64,000 bases of DNA, taken from contig NZ_JASXSH010000001.1 of the NCBI RefSeq assembly GCF_030315745.1, positions 124,001 to 188,000 on the forward strand. The letters run 5' to 3'. Source of the stretch: Gordonia heveisoli (GTDB lineage Bacteria > Actinomycetota > Actinomycetes > Mycobacteriales > Mycobacteriaceae). Positions 44,528 through 51,443 of this stretch are shown piece after piece. Every line of letters begins with the position of its first letter. The first letter of the stretch is position 1. A program made the translations under genes and the position numbers. Below the pieces are notes generated by a model, which worked only from the letters and a program-made list of their open reading frames with translations, did not search any database and was not told where the DNA came from.

Positions 44528-44574
44528 GGGAGCTACCCGCCCGCATTCGCGGATCAGATGCGCCGACGACCGGC

Positions 44575-44610
44575 AATCCCGCGTAGTCGAGTAGTCGACT
44601 ACGCGGGATT
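44575..44610 (+). terminator. Hairpin terminator after fadE-fabG
   Basis: Perfect 16-bp stem (44575-44590 with 44595-44610), loop gtag, 48 bp after the fabG-like stop; ends in gatttct, giving a short T-rich tail. Confidence 0.85.
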
Positions 44611-44668
44611 TCTCGCCGACGGGCGCCCATCATGGAACCATCACACCACTTGCGGGCGCGGAGGTCTC

Positions 44669-46324
44669 ATGAGTACCGAACAGCAGCAGGCCATGGACAA
44701 GCTGTATGCACTCGACAATGTGGTGACGGTCGAGATCACCATGCCCGCCACGGACTGGGAATCGGTCCGAAACGAGGCGCCCAAGGGCGGGCGGTGCAAC
44801 TTCGACTGGACCGGCGGCTCGCGCTACACGTGGCGTACCGCCACCACGGTGACGATCTCCGGAACCCACTTCCCACCGAAGACCACGCTGACAAATGTCG
44901 GCATCAAGAAGAAGTCCTTCTGCGGGTCGATCAGTTCAACCAAACCCTGCCTCCATCTCGATTTCGCCAAGGGCAACAAGCCAAATCGGCCGATCATCGA
45001 AAGTCTCATCGGCACCCGCTACCTCACTCTGAACAACTCGGTGCAGGACGCCTCCTTCGTCCGGCAACCGGTCACCTACAAGCTGTTCGAGCTGGCCGGT
45101 CTGCCATATTCCCGCTGCAACCTGATCCGCGTGCTGGTCAATGGAAAGCCGGTGGGCCAGGGTCTGCCCGGCGTCAACGCGCCGGGGGTCTTCGTCAACG
45201 CGGAGCCGATCATGCCGCGCTATATCGAGCGGCATTTTCCCGACACCAAGGGAAATCTGTACGAGATCGAGCACACCGACGATTTCATCGACTCCCGATT
45301 CGGGTTCATCGGGGTCGAGGATCTGTCGGCCTTCGACGACAAGGCCGACCTGCGACTGGCGGTCAATCACCTCAAAGATCATGGAATCGCCGGAGCCGCA
45401 GATGTTTTCGATCTGGAGCAATACATCAGGCTGTATGCGATGGAGTTCTTCCTCAAACATTGGGACGGATACAGCCGCAACACCAACAACACCTACGTGT
45501 ACAACAATCTGAACGCAGTCGAGCATCCCTCACTCGCCGACGTGGATTTCGTGATGATTCCCTGGGGCGTCGACCAGGTTCTGCAACCCGCCCGGAGTTT
45601 CAACCTCGGCACCGACGGTCTGCTGGCCCGGCTGGTCCGCGCCGACGCCGTCCGACGAGGGCAGGTGATGGATCAGATACGGATCCTGCGTGAAACCGTC
45701 TTCGGCCGGGACCCGCTGGGCAACACCATCATCCCGATGATCGACAACCTGCAGCAAACCCTCACCGGCCTCGGCGTCGGCAACCTGACCGCCGAGATCG
45801 CCGTGGTTCGCAAACAGCTACGACTGGCCGCCTCGGCCGGCTACCTGTGTGCCGGACTACCGAGCTCCGGCGGAGTTTACATCCGCGATGATCGCACGGT
45901 CGACTGCATGCGGGTCGGCACCGAGAAGGTACCCGTCACCGCGCCGAACGCGGTCGACGCCGAGGTGATCCACCGGCCACGACCAGCCCAGACCGAACCC
46001 GAGAATCTGTGGACCTTCACCGATCTGGGTTCTGGTCGTGCGCTGACCAATCCGGCCTCCGGGCGACGTCTGCACGCCAGCGTGACACTCAAGACCGCGC
46101 AGGGGCATCCGATGGTGTACGCCAGCCCCGGCGACAATCGCGACCACGCAGAGGAGTTCACGGTGAACCCCGCCAAATCGCCCGACGCGTTCACCAACAA
46201 CGGGTACTTCACCATCGCCAGCGTGCGCACGGGCGCACAGCTGGTCTTCGGCACCGATCCGACGCCCGGCGGCGAGGTCCGTGTGCACCAGGGCTCGACC
46301 GGTTCGACGCTGTTCTTCACCTGA
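44669..46324 (+). CDS. CotH-like kinase family protein
   Basis: 551 residues from ATG 44669 behind gaggtctc. CotH kinase fold: N-terminal VVTVEITMPATDWESVR, then TLNNSVQDASFVRQPVTYKLFELAGLPYSRCN, the catalytic-loop candidate FFLKHWDGYSRNTNNTYVYNN (Asp and Asn residues) and the metal-binding candidate FVMIPWGVDQVL. CotH proteins are secretory-pathway or spore-coat protein kinases. This organism should not sporulate, so another target is implied. No signal peptide is seen. The C-terminal 130 residues (from about 420) contain repeats like LWTFTDLGSGRALTNPASGRRL, resembling a carbohydrate-binding beta-trefoil. Confidence 0.78.
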   Translation: MSTEQQQAMDKLYALDNVVTVEITMPATDWESVRNEAPKGGRCNFDWTGGSRYTWRTATTVTISGTHFPPKTTLTNVGIKKKSFCGSISSTKPCLHLDFAKGNKPNRPIIESLIGTRYLTLNNSVQDASFVRQPVTYKLFELAGLPYSRCNLIRVLVNGKPVGQGLPGVNAPGVFVNAEPIMPRYIERHFPDTKGNLYEIEHTDDFIDSRFGFIGVEDLSAFDDKADLRLAVNHLKDHGIAGAADVFDLEQYIRLYAMEFFLKHWDGYSRNTNNTYVYNNLNAVEHPSLADVDFVMIPWGVDQVLQPARSFNLGTDGLLARLVRADAVRRGQVMDQIRILRETVFGRDPLGNTIIPMIDNLQQTLTGLGVGNLTAEIAVVRKQLRLAASAGYLCAGLPSSGGVYIRDDRTVDCMRVGTEKVPVTAPNAVDAEVIHRPRPAQTEPENLWTFTDLGSGRALTNPASGRRLHASVTLKTAQGHPMVYASPGDNRDHAEEFTVNPAKSPDAFTNNGYFTIASVRTGAQLVFGTDPTPGGEVRVHQGSTGSTLFFT

Positions 46325-46337
46325 CGCAGCAGATTCG

Positions 46338-46363
46338 GTTTGCCCATCGGTGCGTCGGGGTAC
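46338..46363 (+). promoter_or_regulatory. SigF/SigB-type promoter, leaderless
   Basis: gttt (46338-46341), a 16-nt spacer, then gggtac (46358-46363) match the SigF consensus GTTT-N15-17-GGGTA. The ATG of the next gene is at 46374, 11 nt past the -10, so the transcript would begin at or next to the start codon. Confidence 0.7.
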
Positions 46364-46373
46364 CCACGCGGGC

Positions 46374-47372
46374 ATGCACGCCGCCCTGCACACCTCGCCG
46401 GCCGCCGCACTGCTGCCGCCCGCACGCGGGCCGCTGTCCGCGCACGTCATATCGGTACTCCGAGAAGACTCGTCAGCCGGCCGCCCGCCCGATCCGCACG
46501 GTGCCGATCCGTTGGGCGCCGACATTCAGCTCGCCCTATACGTGCTCTACGAATTGCATTACAGCGGCTTCGTCGACGTCGACCCGGAGTATGAGTGGGA
46601 TCCGGACCTGCTCGCGTTGCGCCGAACGCTGGAGTACTCGATGCTCGACGCGGTCGGGGCCGGCGTCGGACCGATCGCCCCGAAGTCGACCGCCGCACAG
46701 GAGATGGACGCGCTGTCTGTCGAGCCGATTGCCGGGACCGGGGTGTCGTTTCATCTGCGGGACGCCGGTACCTGGCAGCAATTCCGGGACCTCTTCGCGC
46801 TACGTTCGATCTACCACCTCAAAGAGGCCGACCCGCATGCGTGGGCCATCCCCAGACTGCGCGGTCAGGCCAAGGCTGCCTTGGTCGCGGTGGAATTCGA
46901 CGAGTTCGGCGCCGGACGTGGCGCGCACATCCACCAGGAGTTGTTCGCCGATCTACTCGCCGCCGCCGACCTGCGGACCGATCACCTCGGCTATCTCGAC
47001 ATCGCACCCGAATGGGCGTTACTGCCGGTGAACCTGATGTCCTGCCTCGGCTTGCATCGCGCTTTGCGTGGCGCCGCGGTCGGCCATCTCGCCGCCACCG
47101 AGATCACCTCGTCACCCGGATCACAGCGTCTACTGTCCGGGCTCGAACGACTCGACGCACCCGAGCCCTGCCGAGCGTTCTACCGCGAGCATGTCGAGGC
47201 CGACGCGGTTCACGAACAGGTGATGCGCTTCGACGTGGTCGGCGCACTGATCCGCGATGAACCCGACCTGGAGCGAGACGTCATCTTCGGGATGCGCGCC
47301 TTCGGCTATGTGGAGGACCTCTTCGACGTGGCGTTGCGTCAGGCATGGACGAACGGGGAACCGATTCGCTGA
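46374..47372 (+). CDS. Haem-oxygenase-like diiron (iron-containing redox enzyme) protein
   Basis: 332 residues from ATG 46374. Helical haem-oxygenase-like fold with metal-ligand candidates in three helices: ALYVLYELHYSGF (Glu, His), VEFDEFGAGRGAHIHQELFADLL (Glu, His) and FYREHVEADAVHEQVM (His, Asp, His). The middle motif E-F-D-E-F-G-x-G is typical of the group annotated as iron-containing redox enzyme, related to UndA/SznF/BesC-type oxygenases. No ribosome site precedes the ATG. A SigF-type promoter ends 11 nt upstream, so translation is probably leaderless and stress-induced. Converges with the CDGSH/methyltransferase pair; substrate unknown. Confidence 0.82.
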   Translation: MHAALHTSPAAALLPPARGPLSAHVISVLREDSSAGRPPDPHGADPLGADIQLALYVLYELHYSGFVDVDPEYEWDPDLLALRRTLEYSMLDAVGAGVGPIAPKSTAAQEMDALSVEPIAGTGVSFHLRDAGTWQQFRDLFALRSIYHLKEADPHAWAIPRLRGQAKAALVAVEFDEFGAGRGAHIHQELFADLLAAADLRTDHLGYLDIAPEWALLPVNLMSCLGLHRALRGAAVGHLAATEITSSPGSQRLLSGLERLDAPEPCRAFYREHVEADAVHEQVMRFDVVGALIRDEPDLERDVIFGMRAFGYVEDLFDVALRQAWTNGEPIR

Positions 47373-47383
47373 TCCCGGACACC

Positions 47384-47590
47384 TCACCCCAGATCCGCTC
47401 CCCGGCAGCGTCGACGATGGCTGGTGTCGCACAGCGGATAGTTGCGGCTTCGTCCGCACGCGCAGAGTGCCACCATGAATCGATCCGAGTGCACCAGGGT
47501 CCCGTCGGACAGTTCGATGTCCACCGGGCCGGGCACCATCAACGGACCGCCGCGGACCAGACGGACACGTACACATGAGCCCTCGGCCAT
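47384..47590 (-). CDS. CDGSH-type iron-sulfur domain protein (mitoNEET-like)
   Basis: 68 residues from ATG 47590. The 2Fe-2S ligand set C-x-C...C-D-x-x-H is present in ALCACGRSRNYPLCDTSH (Cys, Cys, Cys and His), the CDGSH signature. Small soluble electron carrier or cluster-transfer protein. The start lies 1 bp after the stop of the upstream methyltransferase gene, so the two are translationally coupled. Its own stop is 11 bp from that of the converging diiron-protein gene, an arrangement suggesting a functional group. Confidence 0.88.
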   Translation of the reverse strand: MAEGSCVRVRLVRGGPLMVPGPVDIELSDGTLVHSDRFMVALCACGRSRNYPLCDTSHRRRCRGADLG

Positions 47591-47591
47591 C

Positions 47592-48356
47592 TCACACCTC
47601 CCGGCGTCGGGTCTCGGATTTGTCGGCACGGATGACGGAGATGCGCTCGACCCGTCGACCCGGTTCGAGGACTCCCCGATTCTCCAACCAGTCCGCCTGG
47701 GACCGCAGTACGGGTCCGAAGGGAATCCACTGAGAGCGCACCACTCCGGCGCGCAGCCCCGACCGGCGCAATGCCTCCACCGACCTGCGGACATCCGCGA
47801 ACTCCGACTGCACGACGAAGAGCGCACCATCGGTGTTCAGCAGGTCGGCGGCGTGATCGCACAGCGGGTCGAGGATGGCGCGGCCATCTTCACCGGCGTC
47901 CCACGAGGACCGCGGGTCGCCGACATCCCCGTCGCCGCCGTCCGTCTCGTTCGGGGCGCACGGCACATACGGCGGGTTGCAGGTGACCAGGTCGAATCGA
48001 CAGATAGCGCCCCCGCTGAGCGCCGACAACCCACCACCGGCACCCCAGCCCACCGTCAGGTCGACGGCCATCACAGTGACCGGCGCCGGCACGTCGGCAC
48101 AGTTGCGGCGGGTGGCTTCAACCGCTGCGGGGCTGGAGTCGACGGCGAGTACCGATTGTGCACCGAGGACCGCACATTCCCGTGCGACGATCCCTGATCC
48201 CGTGCAGAGATCGGCCGCGCGCGCACCCGGCGCACATCCGCTGACCCGTACGGCATCGATCAGTAGACGTGAGTCCTGTTGTGGCCGATAAACACTCCCC
48301 GTGCCCCGCGATTGCGCAGCCGAGGACGTCCACGTGGTGCCGAGCGTGACGGTCAC
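47592..48356 (-). CDS. HemK-like class I methyltransferase
   Basis: 254 residues from GTG 48356 (gaggtg upstream). SAM motif I AADLCTGSGIVARECAVLGA, acid loop VLAVDSSPAAVEATRRN, and the NPPY motif VTCNPPYVPCAP that marks N5-glutamine/N6-adenine methyltransferases of the HemK/PrmC class. The usual N-terminal helical domain of PrmC is missing, so it resembles the shorter MTQ2/HemK2-type enzymes; the target protein is unknown. Coupled to the CDGSH gene downstream. The start faces the promoter zone of the sigma-factor module. Confidence 0.85.
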   Translation of the reverse strand: MTVTLGTTWTSSAAQSRGTGSVYRPQQDSRLLIDAVRVSGCAPGARAADLCTGSGIVARECAVLGAQSVLAVDSSPAAVEATRRNCADVPAPVTVMAVDLTVGWGAGGGLSALSGGAICRFDLVTCNPPYVPCAPNETDGGDGDVGDPRSSWDAGEDGRAILDPLCDHAADLLNTDGALFVVQSEFADVRRSVEALRRSGLRAGVVRSQWIPFGPVLRSQADWLENRGVLEPGRRVERISVIRADKSETRRREV

Positions 48357-48670
48357 GGTCGCACACCTCGCAGGTCTCCTCGAGCCGGCGCGCCCATCTT
48401 CGAACCTGCCATACGCTCACCGTCCTCGCGATCATCGAAAGATCCATCCTGGATTCGCGAGGGGGTTCCCCGGCTCGGTCCTCGCCAAACCACCGGGGCA
48501 TCGTGGGGTCGGTCGGGTCCCGTGCAGCCCCCTGAGCACCATCTGGGGTCGCGCGTTCCTTGGCGGGACGTGCGGTTTGGGCCGACGACGCAGTGGGTAA
48601 CAATTGCGACAGACCGGTATTCGGATCAGCGGTTTTGACAATCGCGTGCAGCGACGTGAGGGGATTCGAC
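48357..48670. other. Divergent control region (314 bp) of the sigma module
   Basis: No gene was recognised here. The region holds the promoter of the leftward methyltransferase and a SigF-type promoter (48575-48600) for the rightward anti-sigma gene. Confidence 0.6.
48575..48600 (+). promoter_or_regulatory. SigF/SigB-type promoter of the anti-sigma gene
   Basis: gttt (48575-48578), 16-nt spacer, gggtaa (48595-48600): exact match to GTTT-N15-17-GGGTA. The expected start of transcription is about 48607, giving a leader of roughly 65 nt before GTG 48671. It implies autoregulation by the sigma factor encoded at 49795. Confidence 0.75.
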
Positions 48671-49126
48671 GTGACCGACCAGGGTGACACCATCGACGAG
48701 CAGTTGGTGGAGGTGACGCATGCGGCCGGCCCTCCGGTACAGGTCTCCGTGGCCGCCGAGGCCGACCGACTGTCGATCGTGCGTGCGGTTGTCGAGCGCA
48801 CCTTGTTCCTGGCGGACTGGCCCCTCGACGACGTCGCCGACATACAACTCGCGGTCGACGAGGTGTGCTCACAACTGGTCACCATTTCTGCCGCCGGACA
48901 CCGCATCGACGTTTCCCTCAGCGTCGGTCCGCACGGGTTGCTGGCGGTGATCGATGGGCGGGTCGCCGATCGCTTGCAGCTCGATACCACCGGATTCGGC
49001 TGGCGAGTCGTCGAAACCGTGACCGACCGACAGTCGGTGACCTATGACGACTCCCGCCCAGAGGACGAACACACCGAGAGCGACCGGCGCGTCACTGTAC
49101 GCATCACCAAACGCGTCGACGTCTGA
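48671..49126 (+). CDS. Anti-sigma factor, RsbW-like serine kinase
   Basis: 151 residues from GTG 48671. HATPase_c_2/GHKL fold: VRAVVERTLFLADWPLDDVADIQLAVDEVCSQLV carries the N-box (Glu/Asp in LAVDEVCSQLV), and the late block DTTGFGWRVVETVTDRQSV corresponds to the G-box GxGxxxV. It is of the UsfX/RsbW type, which binds the sigma factor and phosphorylates the antagonist. Encoded with STAS antagonist (49138) and sigma factor (49795), though the antagonist is on the opposite strand. Preceded by a SigF-type promoter. Confidence 0.85.
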   Translation: MTDQGDTIDEQLVEVTHAAGPPVQVSVAAEADRLSIVRAVVERTLFLADWPLDDVADIQLAVDEVCSQLVTISAAGHRIDVSLSVGPHGLLAVIDGRVADRLQLDTTGFGWRVVETVTDRQSVTYDDSRPEDEHTESDRRVTVRITKRVDV

Positions 49127-49137
49127 CCGAACTTCGC

Positions 49138-49557
49138 TCAGTGCAGGAGATGCGGCTGCAGGGCCTCCACGGCCTCCTCCAGTGTGGCGTACGCCTCGAC
49201 GATCGGATCGAGACGGCAAAGCCGCAGCGTCCTGGCAAGTCCCCGCTCACACACCACGGAGACGGGCATCTGCTGCGCGGCGGCGTCGGCGACGAATCGG
49301 CCGATGACCCCGACCCCGGACACAGAGACGAAGTCGACACCCCCCATATCGAGGACCACGCATGCCGGGCGCTGTCCCAGGATGCGGTCGAGCGCAGCGG
49401 TCAGGTCGGCGAGGGTGCCCAGGTCGATGTCGCCGGAAAACTGCTGCAGACACAGCGATTCGCGGATCACGAGACTGCTGTTCGTCGTCCGCGCAACCCG
49501 AAAGTCCAAGGGCCACAGCTCTGACGGGTGAAAGGTCGTGTGAGTATCCAGATTCAT
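49138..49557 (-). CDS. STAS-domain anti-anti-sigma factor
   Basis: 139 residues from ATG 49557. Single STAS domain: IRESLCLQQFSGDIDLGTLADLTAALDRIL, VVLDMGGVDFVSVSGVGVIGRF in which a Ser of DFVSVSG is the likely phosphorylation site, and VVCERGLARTLRLCRLD. When unphosphorylated it should bind the anti-sigma kinase and free the sigma factor. Orientation opposite to its partners (convergent with the anti-sigma gene, 11 bp between stops) means separate control. Confidence 0.88.
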   Translation of the reverse strand: MNLDTHTTFHPSELWPLDFRVARTTNSSLVIRESLCLQQFSGDIDLGTLADLTAALDRILGQRPACVVLDMGGVDFVSVSGVGVIGRFVADAAAQQMPVSVVCERGLARTLRLCRLDPIVEAYATLEEAVEALQPHLLH

Positions 49558-49794
49558 GGCGCACCGCCTCAACTCGATGTCGAGATCGTGATGGGCACGT
49601 GATCACTCACCGTCCCATCCGGCCGTCAAGAACGAACCGTCTGGGTCAGGACGACGCAGTGACGAGACCCGGGGGTGATCGCCCATTTGCAGCTGCTGTC
49701 TGAACCGCTGTTTCAACCGTACGGTGGTGAACGAGCATCTTCAAGACTTGTTTCACTGCCGAACGAACCGGGCGGCGACTACCCTCCGGAGACG

Positions 49795-50670
49795 ATGCAC
49801 CGGTCTCGCCGACCTACCGAGGAGTCCACCGAAGCCGATCGGAGGAGCCTGTTGACCTCAGCCGATTCCGACCCGACCGCCAAGGCCGACGACTATTCCG
49901 ACGTAACCGCCGCCATCGCCGCGATGCGTGCGGAGCCCGACGAACTGCGCCGATGCGCGATGCGCGACCGGATCGTCGAACGTTGCCTGCCACTCGCCGA
50001 CCACGTGGCACGCCGATTCCGGGATCGGGGTGAAGCGCTGGACGATCTCGTCCAGGTCGCCCGGATCGGCTTGGTCAACGCCGTCGATCGATTCGAGCCC
50101 GATCGCGGATTCGGCTTCCTCTCCTTCGCGGTTCCCACCGTGATGGGTGAGGTGCGGCGCCACTTCCGCGACACCATGTGGTCGATGCGGGTGCCGCGCC
50201 GGGCCAAGGAGGTGTCACTCGCGATCGGCAAGGCCAACGACGAACTCGTCCAACGCCTGGGCCGGTCACCCCGGCCAAGCGAAGTGGCGGACTTTCTCGA
50301 CATTCCGGTCGCCGAGGTGATCGACGGCCTGGCCGCGCGCTCGGCCTACAACGCGATCTCGATCGACGCCGATTCCGACACCGACGACGGTCGTTCCATC
50401 CGTGACACACTCGGCCGCGACGACGAACACCTCGAGCAGATCGATGAGTTCACCGCGCTCACCCCCGCCGTGGCGCAACTCGATGAGCGCGAGCGAAAGA
50501 TATTGTCACTGCGCTTCTTTCGCGACATGTCGCAAACCGAGATCGCCGCCGAGATCGGCATCTCCCAGATGCATGTGTCCAGGCTGTTGGCACGAACCCT
50601 GGATCGCTTGCGCGCCGCGGCGAACGGAGCCGACGCCATCGATCCCGACACCACCGGATTACCCGACTAG
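49795..50670 (+). CDS. SigB/SigF-family RNA polymerase sigma factor
   Basis: 291 residues from ATG 49795 with ccggaga upstream (the frame is open to 49675). Sigma-70 group 3: region 2 has ADHVARRFRDRGEALDDLVQVARIGLVNAVDRFEPDRGFGFLSFAVPTVMGEVRRHFRD; region 3 has RPSEVADFLDIPVAEV; region 4 ends in MSQTEIAAEIGISQMHVSRLLARTLDRLR. This subgroup governs general or envelope stress in actinobacteria. Controlled by the anti-sigma kinase and STAS antagonist next door. Two promoters matching its presumed consensus are present in the window. Confidence 0.93.
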   Translation: MHRSRRPTEESTEADRRSLLTSADSDPTAKADDYSDVTAAIAAMRAEPDELRRCAMRDRIVERCLPLADHVARRFRDRGEALDDLVQVARIGLVNAVDRFEPDRGFGFLSFAVPTVMGEVRRHFRDTMWSMRVPRRAKEVSLAIGKANDELVQRLGRSPRPSEVADFLDIPVAEVIDGLAARSAYNAISIDADSDTDDGRSIRDTLGRDDEHLEQIDEFTALTPAVAQLDERERKILSLRFFRDMSQTEIAAEIGISQMHVSRLLARTLDRLRAAANGADAIDPDTTGLPD

Positions 50671-50762
50671 GGCGCGACAATCACATTCAGCGAGGCGTCT
50701 CGCTGGGTAGTATCCGTGAGTTGACATCCGCTCGGCCACCTTCCCGGGCAGTGGAACGAGAG

Positions 50763-51443
50763 GTGGGACCGTTGACCGAGGACGACATCCACCAGGTTTT
50801 GAGCACCGGCTCCGCATTTCGACCGGTCGCCACCTTCCGCTTCTATTTCACCGACGAGCATTGGGAATGGTCGGACGAGGCCGCGATTCTGCACGGATAC
50901 CAACCGGGCGAGGTCGTTCCGACCACCGACCTACTCACCCGTCACAAACACCCGGAGGATCGCGCGCGGTTCGAAGGGACCGTCGCCGAGATGCTGGCAC
51001 ACCGCACGCCCTTTTCCAGTCGACATCGCATCATCGACACCCGCGGCAAGGTTCACTCGGTCGCGGTGATCGCGAAGACCTTCGCCGACGCCGAGGGGAC
51101 GGTCATCGGTACCGAGGGTTTCTACCTCGACCTGGACGAGCACATCGAGTCACTCGTCAACCCGCGGATCGAGGAGCATGTACAGCGCTTCCGCAGCGGA
51201 CGGGCGGTGATCGAGCAGGTCAAGGGCATGATGATGCTCGTCTACGGCATCTCCGACGAACGTGCCTTCGAGGTGCTGACCTGGCGTTCCCAGGAGGAGA
51301 ACGTCAAGGTCACCGATCTGTGTGCCGCCATCTGCGCCCGGGTCGGTGAGATCGCCATCGCCGCCGACAATCGGCGTGCCTTCGACCAACTGCTGCTGAC
51401 CTCTCATCTCGAGATCACCCGCCCGGAGACCGCACCCGACTGA
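50763..51443 (+). CDS. PAS-ANTAR RNA-binding antiterminator
   Basis: 226 residues from GTG 50763 with gaacgagag upstream (TTG 50721 is the alternative). N-terminal PAS sensor domain (about 20-130): RFYFTDEHWEWSDEAAILHGYQPGEVVP and VIAKTFADAEGTVIGTEGFYLDLD. C-terminal ANTAR domain (about 145-205): RSGRAVIEQVKGMMMLVYGISDERAFEVLTWRSQEENVKVTDLC. ANTAR proteins bind paired hexaloop RNA hairpins to prevent transcription termination. The gene follows the sigma gene by 92 bp in the same direction, a frequent pairing in Mycobacteriales. The PAS ligand is not known. Confidence 0.88.
   Translation: MGPLTEDDIHQVLSTGSAFRPVATFRFYFTDEHWEWSDEAAILHGYQPGEVVPTTDLLTRHKHPEDRARFEGTVAEMLAHRTPFSSRHRIIDTRGKVHSVAVIAKTFADAEGTVIGTEGFYLDLDEHIESLVNPRIEEHVQRFRSGRAVIEQVKGMMMLVYGISDERAFEVLTWRSQEENVKVTDLCAAICARVGEIAIAADNRRAFDQLLLTSHLEITRPETAPD

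Follow-up and report, generated by a model that had tools for sequence, protein, structure and literature searches.

The published SigF consensus is GGWWT-N16-17-GGGTAY (PMC7693655). Among the 88 numeric promoter distances read in the SigF table of PMC4694148, 14 fall at 8 to 11 bases, and placement next to the start codon is therefore a recurring class, at least in that part of the table. The closest described case is MSMEG_1773 of M. smegmatis, which that 2015 report lists as strongly SigF dependent, with log2 changes of -5.98 and -4.09 when sigF is deleted and with a GTTT-N15-GGGAA promoter 11 bases from the start (PMC4694148); the promoter sequence has been printed as GTTTACCGCAGGCACAAATGGGAAT (PMC5445863). 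The same report describes the adjoining methylase MSMEG_1771 and MSMEG_1772 as likewise SigF dependent and places the MSMEG_1772 promoter at a distance of 696 bases (PMC4694148), about the length of one methyltransferase gene, which fits the gene order of the locus described here. Leaderless transcripts make up 24% of those in M. smegmatis (PMC6448022), and an ATG or GTG at +1 is enough for leaderless initiation in mycobacteria (PMC4633059). Our literature searches combining haem oxygenase with leaderless or with MSMEG_1773 returned nothing on the diiron protein discussed below, and a search combining Gordonia with SigF returned nothing relevant.

We analyzed a window of 64,000 nucleotides from Gordonia heveisoli, in which a gene for a haem-oxygenase-like diiron protein is preceded by a motif of this kind (Table 1; coordinates count from the first base of the window). 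The -10 element is followed by CCACGCGGGC and then by ATG 46374-46376, and the 16-base spacer lies within the 15 to 17 bases that we required between a GTTT-like and a GGGTA-like element. An earlier note on this DNA had placed GTTT-N16-GGGTAC 11 bases before an ATG without a ribosome site. The motif stands as described; the gap is 10 bases from the end of GGGTAC and 11 from the end of GGGTA, a trivial difference, and either way the -10 element is set such that +1 would coincide with the start codon. The lack of a ribosome site is also borne out, as no Shine-Dalgarno core (AGGA, GGAG or GAGG) is found upstream of ATG 46374.

Table 1. Positions of promoter elements and genes in the window.
Feature	Position	Strand	Remarks
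-35 element GTTT (GGTTT from 46337)	46338..46341	+	Exact SigF-type -35; exact GTTT in 63/94 orthologous leaderless promoters
-10 element GGGTAC, 16 bases past -35	46358..46363	+	GGGTAC in 11/94 orthologous leaderless promoters, GGGTAN in 79/94
Predicted transcription start region, leader 0-4 bases, A46374 favored	46370..46374	+	Inferred: 9-11 spacing in 93/94 orthologs, C at -1 in 64/94
Haem-oxygenase-like diiron protein, 332 aa, start ATG 46374	46374..47372	+	PF14518, E 4.4e-49
CDGSH iron-sulfur protein gene, convergent with diiron gene	47384..47590 (homologous part; listed frame to 47830)	-	PF09360
HemK-like methyltransferase gene	47592..48356	-	PF05175; HemK/PrmC-type NCBIfam models below cut-off
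Third SigF-type promoter, GTTT-N16-GGGAA	48466..48490	-	About 110 bases upstream of methyltransferase-CDGSH pair
Second SigF-type promoter, GTTT-N16-GGGTA	48575..48599	+	About 57-72 bases ahead of likely rsbW-like start
rsbW-like anti-sigma kinase gene (start 48656 or 48671)	48656..49126	+	PF13581, just below Pfam cut-off
STAS anti-sigma-antagonist gene	49138..49572	-	PF01740; antiparallel between rsbW and sigF
SigF-type sigma factor gene	49675..50670	+	TIGR02980 284 bits (cut-off 234); PRK07122 SigF 329 bits (cut-off 372)

The match to the SigF motif is by itself weak evidence. GTTT-N14-18-GGGTA is expected 0.16 times per 64-kb window and was found twice, and the broader pattern GTTT-N15-17-GGGWA gave three matches against 0.53 expected. 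Genome-wide, however, the 20 sites of GTTT-N15-17-GGGTA barely exceed the 13 of the reversed control pattern, and motif enrichment was therefore dropped as proof. We instead regard conservation at fixed spacing ahead of the orthologous gene as the decisive test of the promoter. We collected 141 non-redundant orthologous genes from Gordonia, Mycobacterium, Williamsia, Dietzia, Rhodococcus and other genera of the family and scored them for a -10 element GGG[TA]A or GGGAT with a GTTT-like -35 element, and with 8 to 12 bases separating the -10 from an in-frame ATG or GTG. Such a promoter precedes 94 of the 141 genes, at 9 to 12 bases from the start codon and, for all except one, at 9 to 11; in 100 shuffles of the upstream regions the mean was 1.37 and the maximum 6. 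With an exact GTTT required, 63 were observed versus 0.01 in shuffles. The same promoter arrangement precedes the same gene across mycobacteria and their relatives, which indicates that a leaderless start is an ancient and strictly kept property of the diiron-gene promoter.

That the match is coincidental and the gene expressed from another promoter would be in keeping with the near parity of motif and control counts in the genome and with the absence of the leaderless form from most Gordonia orthologs. We nevertheless consider this the least probable of the readings weighed here, to the point of being close to negligible, given that orthologous conservation lies far above the shuffles and that the three GTTT-N15-17-GGGWA matches of the window cluster at three genes of the sigF neighborhood, all inside 2.3 kb. 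Moreover, no sigma-70-like promoter that might serve the gene instead was detected in 46200-48700, and the scanned stretches yielded neither terminators nor Rfam RNA families. We conclude that 46338-46363 is very likely a functional SigF-type promoter of the diiron gene, with transcription predicted to start at, or at most about 4 bases upstream of, ATG 46374.

Several features of the 94 promoters point to where within this interval transcription would begin. The base at -1 is C in 64 of them, and also in the window gene, and a Shine-Dalgarno core precedes only 4 of the 94 genes as compared with 26 of the remaining 47. Fixed spacing of 9 to 11 bases, C at -1 and the near absence of a Shine-Dalgarno core are what one would predict for transcripts that begin at the start codon. 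A SigF-dependent promoter could still yield an mRNA with a leader of only a few bases, with the start 3 to 5 bases before the ATG. The usual distance from -10 to +1 would permit G46370-G46372 within the GGGC that directly precedes the ATG, a start 7 bases past GGGTAC would leave a 4-base leader, and leaders of up to 5 bases are counted as leaderless in published work (PMC6448022). We hold such a leader to be unlikely, though by a modest degree, since the spacing to the start codon is so narrowly held among the orthologs, since C at -1 is also found at mycobacterial start sites and since mycobacterial translation begins less efficiently from codons at +2 to +5 (PMC4633059). The favored start is thus A46374 itself. 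The window gene resembles mapped mycobacterial leaderless mRNAs in carrying ATG or GTG at +1 or close to it, a C at -1 and no Shine-Dalgarno core (PMC4633059, PMC6448022), and differs from them in that its start is predicted.

The assignment of ATG 46374 as the translation start was weighed against GTG codons upstream. The frame is open upstream, with a 363-aa ORF from GTG 46281 inside the CotH gene, and the CotH-like gene lies on the same strand, ends at 46324 and is followed by no terminator-like sequence in the scanned stretch. Translation could accordingly begin at GTG 46281 or GTG 46350, with the SigF motif inside coding sequence and the mRNA arising from an upstream promoter by read-through from the CotH gene. 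This is very improbable in our view. The orthologs start 8 to 29 codons before a conserved LP motif, GTG 46350 lacks a ribosome site, and conservation extends to the promoter but not to the upstream gene. We rejected both GTG codons as starts, since with either of them the conserved promoter would fall within the gene, and neither agrees with the conserved start positions. ATG 46374 lies 13 codons ahead of the LP motif, the same position as in Gordonia orthologs whose starts have a ribosome site (L021, L023, L102 and L111), and this shared position supports it as the true start. The leaderless start proposed in the earlier note gains support from comparison, by way of spacing, the base at -1, the missing Shine-Dalgarno core and agreement with the Gordonia starts. 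The upstream gene encodes a CotH-kinase-domain protein (44558-46324, 588 aa) and ends 14 bases before the promoter; no counterpart was seen in the flanking DNA of the other loci that were compared.

A search of the genome returned one SigB/F/G-family gene above cut-off, the sigma gene of the window. Its best-scoring NCBIfam model is PRK07122 SigF, yet its score is below that model's own cut-off. The earlier note had tied the diiron gene to a stress sigma gene about 3.4 kb away. The connection is strengthened by the sigma gene being the sole one of its type in the genome, and the note's SigF assignment of the promoter by this together with conservation across the family; the distance needs correction, as the listed frame starts 3.3 kb downstream of the ATG. 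Next to the sigma gene, between it and the diiron gene, lie genes for an anti-sigma kinase of RsbW type and for a STAS antagonist, and such partner-switching proteins would release SigF, after which RNA polymerase carrying it would read GTTT-N16-GGGTAC to give an mRNA whose 5′ untranslated region is very short or absent. The ribosome would then start on the 5′-terminal AUG without Shine-Dalgarno contact. For G. heveisoli, we infer that SigF binds the promoter, where exactly transcription begins and that the mRNA is translated without a leader.

The second SigF-type motif (48575-48599) is a probable feedback promoter of the rsbW-like gene, and the third faces the methyltransferase-CDGSH pair. 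Around the methyltransferase start, a SigF motif occurs within 260 bases in 34 of 118 orthologous loci versus a background of 3.6%. The order of diiron gene, antiparallel CDGSH gene and antiparallel methyltransferase gene holds in nearly all loci compared, and in some Gordonia it is followed by RsbW on the diiron-gene strand, STAS on the opposite strand and SigF again on the first. The diiron-gene promoter would firmly place the uncharacterized diiron oxygenase-like protein and its CDGSH iron-sulfur and methyltransferase neighbors in the SigF stress regulon across a bacterial order. Separately, we observed that the arrangement of rsbW-like (+), antiparallel STAS (-) and sigF (+) genes at 48656-50670 recurs in several Gordonia (loci L022, L023, L028 and L032) and that a PAS-ANTAR protein gene (50721-51443), possibly an antitermination regulator tied to the stress module, lies directly downstream of sigF.

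The protein encoded by 46374-47372 belongs, by its domain and predicted fold, to the haem-oxygenase-like diiron proteins. Candidate ligands E151, E177, H187, H273, D277 and H280 are invariant in 24 orthologs and align with SznF E189, E215, H225, H311, D315 and H318, which we take to be the six iron ligands of that enzyme; the diiron identity put forward in the earlier note is supported by this agreement at every position. A profile of the 24 orthologs matches HrmI, RohS and SznF, and an AlphaFold2 model (pLDDT 88.8) has HrmI as its best PDB match (TM about 0.7), with SznF also among the best. The protein is probably an oxygenase or oxidase. It shares with the N-oxygenases HrmI, SznF and RohS a PF14518-type domain, the aligned and invariant ligand set and the best fold matches in the PDB, but is only about 18-20% identical to them.

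Comparison with the described promoters shows the window promoter to be a Gordonia member of a known SigF-regulon class. MSMEG_1773 is probably the ortholog of the diiron gene, judged only by gene order and promoter placement; the published MSMEG_1773 promoter sequence found no match in the 396 Mycobacterium genomes searched, and the orthology therefore rests on gene order. Both genes have a GTTT-like/GGG-type SigF motif 11 bases before the start codon, but the spacer is 15 bases in MSMEG_1773 and 16 in the window, and the -10 element is GGGAA in the former and GGGTA in the latter. The window promoter likewise shares a GTTT-like -35 element, a GGGTA-like -10 element and 8 to 11 bases to the start codon with leaderless mycobacterial SigF promoters such as those of MSMEG_0521, 0686, 1758, 1775, 5402 and 6515, and differs from them in its host, Gordonia, where most of the genus is not leaderless at the diiron gene. 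SigF dependence of the probable M. smegmatis ortholog was thus already known, and the window promoter is less novel than the earlier note supposed because MSMEG_1773 had been reported as SigF dependent, with like placement, in 2015 (PMC4694148).

What is new, as read from the compared upstream regions, is that most Gordonia relatives lack the leaderless form and that several carry a SigF motif further upstream together with a leader and a ribosome site. By our test, 90 of 111 genes outside Gordonia are leaderless versus 4 of 30 within it, so that 90 of the 94 leaderless-type promoters belong to non-Gordonia genes. The four are the window gene, L105, L108 and L111, the last being ambiguous. Of the remainder, an exact SigF motif lies at a greater distance upstream in 7 of the 30, and 19 of the 30 have no motif within 250 bases; a ribosome site precedes the start codon in several upstream-motif genes (L021/L103, L023/L109, L110, L032/L120, L125 and L127). 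Genus membership alone is therefore no predictor of the leaderless form. In a quick protein tree the promoter types cluster, with 13 changes in all versus 48.5 in shuffles, and the window gene, on a long branch, may have kept or regained the leaderless form, neither being favored. The orthologs with an upstream motif may have kept the SigF motif and gained a leader, or the reverse.

It is this mixture of forms in Gordonia that merits further work. We tentatively speculate, as an idea more doubtful than not, that the leaderless start is itself selected, with SigF control and leaderless translation retained together across Mycobacteriales while several Gordonia lineages (L021, L023, L110, L032, L125 and L127) kept the SigF promoter with a leader and ribosome site. 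If true, these genes would allow one gene under one sigma factor to be compared in naturally occurring leaderless and leadered versions. Gordonia could serve to find out what benefit leaderless translation brings under stress. Two further observations concern the genus. An exact SigF motif lies 78 to 136 bases before the conserved LP codon in L021, L023, L110, L111, L032, L125 and L127, most of which have a ribosome site, and Gordonia genomes G013, G018, G031, G037, G041, G045, G048, G050 and G054 carry an additional, more divergent version of the diiron gene (38-41% identity).
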